From: Vineibacter terrae
GTDB lineage: Bacteria > Pseudomonadota > Alphaproteobacteria > Reyranellales > Reyranellaceae
Assembly: GCF_008039615.1 (NCBI RefSeq)
Contig: NZ_VDUZ01000003.1
Span: 186,001 to 250,000 of the forward strand
Length of the DNA: 64,000 nucleotides
Reading direction: 5' to 3'
The notes under the pieces are model-generated. The model had not been told where the DNA came from. It saw only the letters and a program-made list of their open reading frames with translations, and made no database searches. Every line of letters starts with the position of its first letter. Position 1 is the first letter of the stretch. Shown here one piece after another: positions 8,488 through 57,282 of this stretch. Both the position numbers and the translations under genes were made by a program.

Positions 8488-9771
8488 ATGCTCGACCTGA
8501 TCATGCGCGACGCCAGGCTGGCGGACGGAAGGCGTGGCGTCGATATCGGCGTGCGGGGCGGCCGCATCGCGGCGGTCGAGCCCAGCCTGAAGGCCGAGGC
8601 CGGGCAGGTCATCGACGCCCAGGGCCGGCTGGTCACGGCGCCCTTCGTCGATTCCCACTTCCACATGGATGCGACGCTGTCGGTCGGGCTGCCGCGGCGC
8701 AACCGCTCCGGCACGCTGCTGGAGGGGATCGCGCTATGGGGCGAGCTGAAGCCGATCCTGACCCAGGAGGCCATCGTCGAGCGGGCGCTGGCCTATTGCG
8801 ACTGGGCGGTGGCGCGCGGCCTGCTGGCGATCCGCAGCCATGTCGATATCTGCGATCCACGCCTGCTGGCCGTCGATGCGCTGCTGGAGGTCAAGAAGAA
8901 GGTGGCGCCCTACCTCGACCTGCAGCTCGTGGCCTTCCCGCAGGATGGCGTCTATCGCTCGGCCGGCGCCATAGCGCTGCTGCAGGAGGCGCTGCGGCGC
9001 GGCGTCGACGTGGTGGGCGGCATTCCCCACTTCGAGCGCACGATGGAGGAGGGGCGCGCCTCGGTGCGCGCCCTGTGCGAGATCGCGGCGGCGCAAGGCC
9101 GGCTGGTCGACATGCATTGCGACGAGACCGACGATCCGATGTCGCGCCATGTCGAGACCCTGGCCGCCGAGACGGTGCGCCTGGGCCTGCAGGGGCGGGT
9201 GGTCGGATCGCATCTCACCTCGATGCACAGCATGGACAACTACTATGTGTCGAAGCTCATTCCCCTGATGGCGGAGGCCGATCTCGGCGTGATCGCCAAT
9301 CCCTTCGCCAACATGGTGCTGCAGGGCCGGCACGACACCTATCCCAAGCGCCGCGGCATGACCCGCGTGCCCGAGCTGATGGCGGCCGGGCTGACGGTGG
9401 CGCTGGGCCACGACAGCGTCATGGACCCCTGGTACGGCCTGGGCAGCGGCGACATGCTGGACGTGGCCCACATGGCCGTCCACGTGGCGCAGATGACCGG
9501 CCTGGAGGCGATGGCCGCCTGCTTCACGGCAGTCACCGACAACGCCGCCCGGCTGCTGCATCTGGACGGCTACGGCCTGACGCCCGGCTGCCACGCCGAC
9601 ATGGTGCTGCTCGACGCCCACGACCCGGTCGAGGCCATCCGCCTGCGCGCCACGCGCCTGAAGGTGATCCGCCGCGGCCAGGTCATCGCGCAAGCCCCGG
9701 CGCAGCAATCCACGCTGACGCTGCCGGGACGCCCCGCCAGCGTCTCGTTCCGCCGCCCGCCGTTGGCGTGA
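8488..9771 (+). CDS. codA: Cytosine deaminase (amidohydrolase superfamily)
   Basis: This 427-residue metal-dependent hydrolase aligns by eye along its whole length with CodA, which converts cytosine to uracil and ammonia. It has the first metal pair in DSHFHMD (His57, His59). The block SGTLLEGIALWGELKPIL matches the CodA phrase SGTLFEGIERW. AFPQDGVYRSAGAIALLQEA follows, and DMHCDETDD supplies His and the catalytic Glu near residues 208-211. GRHDTYPKRRGMTRV and VALGHDSVMDPWY (metal Asp) complete the site. A related specificity such as isoguanine or creatinine cannot be excluded. The start at 8488 follows GGGGGGAGGAG, while in-frame ATGs upstream fall before that ribosome site. Confidence 0.88.
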   Translation: MLDLIMRDARLADGRRGVDIGVRGGRIAAVEPSLKAEAGQVIDAQGRLVTAPFVDSHFHMDATLSVGLPRRNRSGTLLEGIALWGELKPILTQEAIVERALAYCDWAVARGLLAIRSHVDICDPRLLAVDALLEVKKKVAPYLDLQLVAFPQDGVYRSAGAIALLQEALRRGVDVVGGIPHFERTMEEGRASVRALCEIAAAQGRLVDMHCDETDDPMSRHVETLAAETVRLGLQGRVVGSHLTSMHSMDNYYVSKLIPLMAEADLGVIANPFANMVLQGRHDTYPKRRGMTRVPELMAAGLTVALGHDSVMDPWYGLGSGDMLDVAHMAVHVAQMTGLEAMAACFTAVTDNAARLLHLDGYGLTPGCHADMVLLDAHDPVEAIRLRATRLKVIRRGQVIAQAPAQQSTLTLPGRPASVSFRRPPLA

Positions 9772-9775
9772 GCAT

Positions 9776-10040
9776 ACATGAGCTTTCGACCACCTTCCCC
9801 CGCAAGCGCAGGGCTGTCCGGGGAAAAAGCCTTCATGGTGAGCTTGTCGAACCATGAAGGCCACGCACGACGGCTGGTGCGAGACGCTTCATGGTTCGAC
9901 AAGCTCACCATGAAGCGTTGCTGCAGCGAAAAGTGCCAGATTCTACCAGACATTTTCCCCGGACAGCCCTGCAAGCGGGGCAGGGATTCGCATATGGGAG
10001 CGCCGTCTCCTCTCCCCGCTGCCGCGGGGCGAGGGGTGGC
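9776..10040. repeat. Mosaic of nested intergenic repeats downstream of codA
   Basis: This block joins pieces of several repeat families. There is a CACCTTCCCCCGCAAGCG arm, interrupted by a complete inverted-repeat element (9809-9971), then CAGGGATTCGCATATGGG, an end related to the element at 42972-43184. It finishes with a TCTCCTCTCCCCGCTGCCGC stretch like those at 35969-36140 and 61345-61549. No coding signal is seen. Confidence 0.7.
9809..9971. mobile_element. 163-bp MITE-like element with perfect 19-bp terminal repeats
   Basis: The element begins with CAGGGCTGTCCGGGGAAAA and ends with its exact reverse complement. It is flanked by the direct repeat CAAGCG (9803-9808 and 9972-9977), as expected of a target-site duplication. 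The interior is itself palindromic: CTTCATGGTGAGCTTGTCGA near 9831 is answered by its complement near 9888-9916. It encodes no transposase, so it would need one supplied in trans. It interrupts another repeat of the CCTTCCCCCGCAAGCG family. Confidence 0.75.
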
Positions 10041-10407: not shown

Positions 10408-10770
10408 TCAACTGCCGCGATAGGTGCTGTAGCCGCCCGGCGCCAGCAGCAGGGGCACGTGGTAGTGGCCGCCCTCGTCGCTGATCTCGAAGCGGATCGG
10501 GATGGTCGTCCATATGCTGCCGGTGGGGCCGCCGGCATCGTGGAAATAGGCGGCGGCGTCGAACTCCAGCTCGTACAGGCCGGCGCGCAGCGTGTCGCCC
10601 TGCAGCAGCGGCTGATCGGTGCGGCCGTCGGCGTTGGTGCGGCCCTGCGCCAGCAGGGCGCGGCGGTCGTTGACCACGCGGTAGAGGCGCCAGGCCATGC
10701 CAGCGCCGGGCCGGCCGCGCACGAGATCGAGCACGTGCGTGGTGAGGCCCGGCGGCCTGACGGCGGCCAT
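10408..10770 (-). CDS. uraH: 5-hydroxyisourate hydrolase
   Basis: This 120-residue transthyretin-like enzyme hydrolyses 5-hydroxyisourate, the product of urate oxidation, towards OHCU (2-oxo-4-hydroxy-4-carboxy-5-ureidoimidazoline) and allantoin. It has the N-terminal catalytic histidine in LTTHVLDLVRG, the arginine/histidine core in LLAQGRTNADGRTDQPLLQG, GGHYHVPLLLAPGGYSTYRG, and the exact family ending YRGS. Length is normal for the bacterial enzyme. It starts 15 bases after the oxidoreductase gene on the same strand, so the two are probably co-transcribed, although their pathways are not obviously linked. A frameshifted second copy lies at 4348-4656. Confidence 0.93.
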   Translation of the reverse strand: MAAVRPPGLTTHVLDLVRGRPGAGMAWRLYRVVNDRRALLAQGRTNADGRTDQPLLQGDTLRAGLYELEFDAAAYFHDAGGPTGSIWTTIPIRFEISDEGGHYHVPLLLAPGGYSTYRGS

Positions 10771-14462: not shown

Positions 14463-14593
14463 CTTCATGGTGAGCACAGGTGAATGCTTCGCATTCACCG
14501 AGTCGAACCATGAAGGCATCGCACGAGCGGTGGCGCGGCGCTTCATGGTTCGACTCGGCGGATGCAAGGCATCCGCCTGTGCTCACCATGAAG
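14463..14593. repeat. CTTCATGGTGAGC inverted repeat upstream of the oxidoreductase
   Basis: Left arm CTTCATGGTGAGCACAGG and right arm CCTGTGCTCACCATGAAG are exact complements. A second, inner pair built on GAACCATGAAG and CTTCATGGTTC lies between them. The same CTTCATGG/CCATGAAG phrase forms the interior of the element at 9809-9971. It lies about 165 bases upstream of the oxidoreductase start, in the region that should hold its promoter. Confidence 0.7.
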
Positions 14594-29252: not shown

Positions 29253-29320
29253 GGTCGGGCCGCGCCGCTCCAGCGGCGCTCATGACGGGAAGAGCGTCGC
29301 TGGAGCGACGCGGCCCGACC
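29253..29320. repeat. GGTCGGGCCGCG inverted repeat, copy 1
   Basis: GGTCGGGCCGCGCCGCTCC, then an inner stem, and the complement CGCGGCCCGACC form a long hairpin just after the zur stop and before the sulfurtransferase stop. A second copy lies at 57203-57282. It may act as a two-way transcription end. Confidence 0.8.
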
Positions 29321-42971: not shown

Positions 42972-43184
42972 CAGGGCATTCGCATATGGGTTTTTGACTA
43001 CCTTCCCCCGCTTGCGGGGGAAGGTGCCCGAAAGGCGGATGGGGGGTGGTGCAACAGCGCGGATGCTCGATGGGATGCGCCATTTTCGTTGAAGCGCCCC
43101 CCATCCGGCGCTTCGCGCCACCTTCCCCCGCAAGCGGGGGAAGGTAGTCGAAACCGACACCTCAGCTCATATGCGAATGCCCTG
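42972..43184. mobile_element. 213-bp MITE-like element with perfect 17-bp terminal repeats
   Basis: The element begins CAGGGCATTCGCATATG and ends with the exact complement. It is flanked by the 10-bp direct repeat GGGTCAAAGG (42962-42971 and 43185-43194), as expected for a target-site duplication. Inside are ACTACCTTCCCCCGCTTGCG and its mirrored copy CAAGCGGGGGAAGGTAGT, so almost the whole element can fold on itself. No open reading frame of interest is inside. It sits 22 bases before the start of the Trypco1-like gene, so it may carry or disturb its promoter. Confidence 0.85.
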
Positions 43185-57202: not shown

Positions 57203-57282
57203 GGTCGGGCCGCGCCGCTCCAGCGGCGCTCTTTCAACAACGGGCAGACGAAGAGGCGCCGCTGGAGCGGCGCGGCCCGACC
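57203..57282. repeat. GGTCGGGCCGCG inverted repeat, copy 2
   Basis: GGTCGGGCCGCGCCGCTCC and its complement enclose CTTTCAACAACGGGCAGACG. It is the second copy of the repeat at 29253-29320, here directly after the first tandem gene's stop, and can act as its mRNA end. Confidence 0.8.

Follow-up and report, generated by a model that had tools for sequence, protein, structure and literature searches.

The IS4 family of insertion sequences (ISs) is defined by a DDE transposase with the signature Y-(2)-R-(3)-E-(6)-K, and Table 1 of the same survey lists, for subgroup IS4Sa, the terminal bases CA------T and direct repeats of 8-10 bp (PMC2266710). One member of the family, ISRm22, is reported to insert at the axis of palindromy of S. 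meliloti REPs (PMC1525189) and is placed in IS4Sa (PMC2266710). Targeting of REPs by an IS4Sa member is therefore already published; the present work adds 52 insertions from several genera. The stretch of DNA analysed here in its entirety (the window; 64,000 nucleotides, positions 186001-250000 of contig C3 in an 8.76-Mb draft genome of 135 contigs) carries a 163-bp element that is, with high probability, a MITE of an ISRm16/IS4Sa-like IS4 insertion sequence, mobilised in trans into the centre of a palindrome (Table 1).

A sequence-only reading of this DNA had described a 163-bp element with perfect 19-bp ends and CAAGCG on both sides, and our analysis confirms this description. The ends, CAGGGCTGTCCGGGGAAAA, are perfect inverted repeats over 19 bp, or 20 bp if the flanking G/C is counted; the arms of 25 nt at the element ends are 92% complementary, and CAAGCG directly abuts the element left and right. 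The element lies in a convergent gap, between a 439-aa plus-strand frame that ends at 9771 and a 120-aa minus-strand frame with its stop at 10408. Five ORFs of at least 100 aa touch it, all of which extend into the flanks, and their in-element parts are far too short for a transposase; the element is thus short, bounded by terminal inverted repeats and devoid of a transposase gene, as a MITE is. Taken as a single strand it forms one long hairpin (DNA -64.8 kcal/mol, z -13.4; RNA z -14.8). A role as terminator or promoter was considered and dropped, a simple terminator scan having given none, and Rfam returned sub-threshold matches only, driven by the long hairpin (e.g. AaHKsRNA41, 42.7 bits against a cut-off of 97).

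Table 1. Features of the 163-bp element and its surroundings, in window coordinates.
Feature	Position	Strand	Remarks
163-bp MITE (very probable), ISRm16/IS4-type ends	9809..9971	.	perfect 19-bp terminal inverted repeats; genome copies; ends common to complete IS4-family ISs
Left terminal inverted repeat	9809..9827	+	
Right terminal inverted repeat	9953..9971	-	
Left CAAGCG, 6-bp direct repeat	9803..9808	+	9-10 bp is the family norm
Right CAAGCG	9972..9977	+	
Paired palindrome in the MITE: CTTCATGGTGAGCTTGTCGAACCATGAAG and its inverse around a short CGCAC/GTGCG hairpin	9830..9916	.	also dispersed alone
Left arm and apex of the host palindrome, CCTTCCCCCGCAAGCGGGG	9793..9808	+	intact copies at 43006-43024 and 43121-43139
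GGG after right CAAGCG, remnant of the right arm of the host palindrome	9978..9980	+	
First-type element copy, truncated, ~60 bp (CAGGG-ATTCGCATATGG end and internal hairpin)	9981..10039	+	older layer
First-type element, 213 bp, 10-bp duplication GGGTCAAAGG at its flanks	42972..43184	.	comparison

Full-length copies of the element are found on five contigs of its own genome (C3, C38, C62, C42 and C14) and are 95-100% identical to the window copy, i.e. there are several near-identical copies at unrelated sites, as is looked for in a MITE; a further copy, on C12, lacks its left end, and C29, C44, C49 and C58 carry old or solo ends. The sequence-only reading had staked its case on other copies of the 19-bp end, and these clearly exist. 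The own genome has 14 ends at up to 2 mismatches, against 0 for a reversed control pattern, and 16 of 75 family genomes carry the end when 1 mismatch is allowed over 18 bp. The whole 175-bp stretch is matched (E <= 1e-30) in only three of 41 genomes (own and relatives), all of them of the own genus; one of these, Reyranella sp. CPCC 100927 (G002), has the same element within a different palindrome, with CGCCTGCGCG on both sides. When one genome per species was scanned for the end (Y at base 7), 91 stretches were recovered. By their titles 89 of these are alphaproteobacterial: Methylobacterium, Bradyrhizobium, Mesorhizobium, Reyranella, Rhodospirillales and other MAGs, Hyphomonas, Rhizobium and Taklimakanibacter, the last of which we take to be alphaproteobacterial for this tally. 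The remaining two come from MAGs of Planctomycetota (L062) and Halanaerobiaceae (L138); both are lone CAGGGCC-variant ends, with no second end and no transposase noticed in the sequence fetched, and are probably chance matches. At many loci a second inverted end is present, giving elements of 101-522 bp, and the 19-bp end is a clear annotation marker.

The junctions of these elements were compared across the fetched loci. From 55 end pairs listed first, which included two partners for one locus (L108) and some alternative or damaged pairs, 53 distinct insertions were obtained by keeping only the nearest partner, discarding duplicates as well as rows with fewer than 12 flanking bases, and adding one locus (L213) at a looser mismatch limit; L144, with 5 mismatches in its right end, gives no pair, and loci with a single recognised end stand outside the duplication, palindrome and cluster counts. 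The target site duplication looked for in a MITE is seen at the window copy (6 bp), at the own copy on C38 (9 bp) and in 28 of the 53 insertions, many of them from the same few genomes, as 9-10 bp at 0-1 mismatch (exact 9 bp, 13; exact 10 bp, 4; 9-10 bp with one mismatch, 11). A single insertion has 7 bp, the window copy is the only one with 6 bp, and 23 have no clear duplication. When the flanks of different insertions were crossed (2,756 pairs), comparable matches arose in about 1%: 30 at 9 bp (9 exact and 21 with one mismatch) and 31 at 10 bp (9 exact and 22 with one mismatch). The 6-bp repeat of the window copy is possibly an eroded form of the 9-10-bp family norm. Two other own copies, on C62 and C42, have no direct duplication; the flanks of the latter (L004; G000:C42:5671-5841) are instead perfectly inverted. 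Perfect inverted rather than direct repeats likewise flank L088 and L123, and in all three cases template switching (palindrome correction) or recombination may have produced them. Immediately outside the element, the 5' base is G in 51 of the 53 insertions and the 3' base is C in all 53, which would fit either a functional end of 20 bp or a preference of the cut for C...G.

Most sampled insertions, those in other alphaproteobacteria included, lie at the centre of a palindrome. For the 52 insertions with 24 flanking bases on each side, the arms around the insertion are at least 8/10 complementary in 43 and at least 9/10 in 33, as against 13.5% and 3.0%, respectively, of 10,180 control sites (random positions in the same loci, not intergenic-matched); nine targets fall below 8/10, and here too a small number of genomes contribute many of the insertions.

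The palindrome that received the window copy has a history of its own. It had been claimed that removal of the element and one CAAGCG restores the host repeat, and this holds for the left arm and apex and fails on the right: excision in silico gives ...CCACCTTCCCCCGCAAGCGGGGCAGGGATTCGCATATGG, in which CCTTCCCCCGCAAGCGGGG matches both uninterrupted copies exactly, and the restored sequence then leaves the palindrome (GGGGGAAGG in the intact copies) and enters the end of another element. After GGG the right flank continues as CAGGGATTCGCATATGGGAGCGCC... and aligns with elements of a first type on other contigs (L192, L201, L206 and L185). The claim of nesting in an older repeat thus stands in a refined form, the host being a palindrome to which a truncated first-type element was already attached. 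The likely order of layering is palindrome, first-type element inside it and then the 163-bp element, the last two steps being as the junctions would have it.

The first-type repeat, with ends CAGGGCATTCGCATATG, is very abundant, and its end CAGGGCATTCGCATATGG occurs 146 times in the genome at up to 2 mismatches (control 0). For the 30 loci returned out of these 146 ends, a 10-bp duplication is exact in 11 of the 30 end pairs and has one mismatch in 3 more, and the other 16 include mispaired ends; this duplication length fits an IS4-like insertion. Both element types start CAGGGC, their ends differ after base 6, and their duplications are of similar size (9-10 bp for the 163-bp type, 10 bp for the first type); a shared transposase family, as had been suggested, is plausible. 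No transposase bearing first-type ends was found. A further palindrome of the window, GGTCGGGCCGCGCCGCTCCAGCGGCGC, forms inverted pairs at 29253-29320 and 57203-57282 and flanks a Y1_Tnp (RAYT-like) gene on C74 (L244), which may be its mover.

Complete insertion sequences with the same ends connect the element to the IS4 family. On a Hyphomonas MAG contig the end adjoins a 341-aa IS4 transposase frame, broken off at the contig edge, that matches PF01609 (DDE_Tnp_1; E 2.6e-33) and NCBIfam transpos_IS4_1 (193 bits, the cut-off being 115). Contig edges are close to the end in Bradyrhizobium elkanii WSM2783, where one locus (L056) has it next to the C-terminal part of a similar protein. A tblastn search of plasmids with the Hyphomonas protein returned 291 records, all below 60% identity, with ISRm16 of S. 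meliloti among the best. Complete ISs of ISRm16 type, 1293-1299 bp long, are present on four rhizobial plasmids; they share the element's ends with 0-2 mismatches, and their duplications are 9 bp in two, 7 bp in one and absent in one. A MAG grouped with the window's family (G085) has a complete IS as well, 1286 bp long: its ends show 2 and 3 mismatches, a 10-bp duplication (CATTCAGATG) flanks it, and its transposase is identical to that of ISRm16 at 230 of 387 positions (59%); the IS lies on a 9.7-kb contig and is possibly a binning contaminant, G085 apparently being the MAG Rhizobium sp. Q54 (L139). Because its ends are shared with these plasmid ISs and the G085 IS, i.e. with autonomous elements, we read the 163-bp element as a MITE of an ISRm16-type IS; the MITE reading made from the window alone is upheld by the other genome copies, by the ends common to full ISs and by the 9-10-bp duplications in relatives.

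The subgroup follows with less certainty. The end CAGGGCTGT has C1, A2 and T9 and so fits the IS4Sa terminal bases, and the insertion set has direct repeats within the subgroup's range (mode 9, some 10; window copy 6), so that ends and duplication length together would place the element's partner ISs in IS4Sa as delimited in the survey of De Palmenaer et al. The MITE itself has no protein; in an alignment (A1) of five partner transposases, Y285, R288, E292 and K299 are invariant, as are D122 and D187, presumably the catalytic D residues. By this reading, a full IS copy elsewhere would encode a DDE transposase that recognises the 19-bp ends, excises the element and inserts it into the middle of a GC-rich palindrome between genes, where insertion would typically duplicate 9-10 bp; 6 bp are visible at the window copy.

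No such transposase was found in the genus as sampled. Protein query, NCBIfam NF033592 and alignment query gave a matching transposase in none of the four own-genus genomes, draft assemblies being able to lose multicopy ISs, so that this absence is not proven; across the family a match (E <= 1e-20) occurs in 2 of 75 genomes, and end and transposase occur together only in G085, a hit whose recovery indicates that the query works. Since no ISRm16-type transposase was found in any of the four genomes of the genus, the own-genus copies look orphaned and their partner has to be sought elsewhere; we infer that a transposase of this type moved these very copies and that the host currently lacks it. 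The copies are then probably relics that stay inactive as long as the cell acquires no partner transposase. PF01609 fragments at four places in the own genome were rejected as the partner, no such end being present within 5 mismatches at any of the four loci; at one of them (L210) a first-type end is seen at 3 mismatches. A search for an occupied/empty orthologous pair found none, the nearest orthologous gene (G002, 75% identical DNA) passing downstream into unrelated sequence.

Most of the interior of the element, ~85 bp, consists of two CTTCATGGT...ACCATGAAG palindromes in inverted orientation; this pair is a dispersed inverted repeat in its own right, which the sequence-only reading did not mention. 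Scoring 40 of 135 candidates for the pair placed it at at least 40 distinct places in the own genome. Flanks were inspected for 30 fetched loci of those, i.e. 29 distinct places: at eight an element end is recognisable with up to 4 mismatches, at five of these both ends are, and at 21 there is neither end and the right subterminal sequence is no better than chance. A variant of the pair with an extra hairpin per loop lies at 14463-14593 of the window (53-nt arms, 89% complementary), and at four loci (L020, L023, L024 and L029) the same pair sits within another repeat, with a flank like CACAGCGCAGCC... to one side and TCACCGCGGCTCGCGAAG to the other.

Across genera, 51 elements of up to 600 bp fall, under the threshold chosen, into 14 interior clusters, seven with more than one member, and each of these seven stays within one genus or MAG by its titles, except that family genomes join a Reyranella cluster; a single set of IS4 ends thus encloses many different interiors. 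In five of the seven, the first member, on which alone the inner stem was measured and with no shuffle control, has a perfect stem of 18-45 bp; the clusters of Mesorhizobium (6) and Taklimakanibacter (11) lack one. In Methylobacterium platani (L133) and M. ajmalii (L136) one end lies 50-60 bp inside another, after the half-palindromes CCCCTCTCCCGAGTGGG and CCCCTCTCCCCGCGGGCGG, and this looks like a MITE inside a MITE.

How the interior arose can be argued in two ways. In our reading the inner pair would come from the host, as two palindromes that IS ends have enclosed, and would not be an IS remnant. The classical birth of a MITE by internal deletion of an ISRm16-type IS, with the solo pairs as MITEs that lost their ends, seems to us unlikely here, though far from negligible. 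It draws on three own-genome pairs (L006, L007 and L030) that retain one end at 1-4 mismatches, and on some G002 solo pairs (L047, L049 and L050) in which, as read by eye, the right subterminal MITE sequence is kept without intact ends, so that part of these solo pairs would be eroded MITEs. It also draws on two MITEs of ~510 bp, L091 and more weakly L118, with a 22-24-bp stretch matching IS subterminal positions 80-103; a few other weak IS matches (E 0.002-0.003) fall in the same cluster. The own-genome interiors, however, have no match at E 0.01 to seven IS sequences (two partial), and the 21 places described above show neither ends nor subterminal sequence above chance. Capture of a palindrome between IS ends fits the own-genome interiors, and internal deletion fits L091 and L118.

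Another alternative denies the outer ends any role in transposition: the element would be a REPIN-like or structural repeat (terminator, mRNA stabiliser or protein-binding site), spread by a RAYT or by recombination, in which the 19-bp arms extend the hairpin. The single long hairpin, the position between convergent reading frames, the 21 inspected places with the inner pair alone and the presence of Y1_Tnp genes in three of the four genus genomes (two in the own genome) are in line with it. We nevertheless consider it improbable in view of the target duplications, the ends common to complete IS4 elements and the empty terminator scan. The core CTTCATGGTTCGAC is moreover found within 2 mismatches at none of six Y1_Tnp loci (~3.2 kb each), and a shorter core, CTTCATGGTGAGC, matches once at 2 mismatches in each of L245 and L246, which we put down to chance; the C74 gene is flanked by GGTCGGGCCGCGCCGCTCCAGCGGCGC instead, another window repeat. 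A RAYT as mover of the inner pair was rejected likewise, none of the Y1_Tnp genes at the six genus loci having a cognate pair alongside. That several palindromes came together by chance, without any mobile unit, would suit a window with many inverted repeats (70 pairs under the criteria used) but has a vanishingly small probability: the window holds only two such ends at up to 3 mismatches where shuffling gives an expectation of 0.01, the reversed control pattern found nothing in the genome, and junctions in relatives are clean and carry duplications, so that copy number and junctions together refute it. The preferred reading remains that of a MITE moved in trans by an ISRm16-type IS.

Together, these results point to IS4 as, most likely, the transposase family that would spread one class of intergenic repeat in Reyranella-type bacteria and other alphaproteobacteria, and suggest a simple route for moving and stacking palindromic repeats. 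They would also fit a wider pattern of palindrome-seeking, palindrome-carrying MITEs. We put forward tentatively, as a possibility that we would not yet back, that a palindrome-seeking IS lineage repeatedly spawned MITEs wrapping local REP-like palindromes across genera, the carried palindromes becoming new targets and giving rise to self-nesting stacks. If so, there would be MITE in palindrome, palindrome in MITE and MITE in MITE, and the window locus and the two Methylobacterium loci would be snapshots of the nesting cycle.

Among the papers listed from the literature covered, i.e. without most subscription journals and ISfinder, no MITE of the ISRm16-end type was recognised. The element is well supported as a new family of MITEs, itself a kind already known. 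Its closest relations are ISRm16 and relatives in Sinorhizobium, Rhizobium and Mesorhizobium, whose ends agree within 0-2 bases over 19 bp; these are autonomous, with a transposase of ~387 aa, whereas the window element has no transposase gene and an unrelated interior. ISRm22 resembles it in target habit: as reported in PMC1525189, GC-rich extragenic palindromes are hit at their axis with short direct repeats of 6 bp, but ISRm22 is a full IS. MiniMdi3 of Methylobacterium extorquens, as described in PMC2680597, is likewise a MITE of an alphaproteobacterium and related to a resident IS; it differs in being ~400 bp and related to ISMdi3, the likeness being one of description. REPINs, the paired REPs with RAYT presented in PMC3116915, recall the interior, which is an inverted pair of REP-like hairpins; the differences are that no cognate RAYT was found beside the interior pair and that the outer ends of the window element are of IS4 type.
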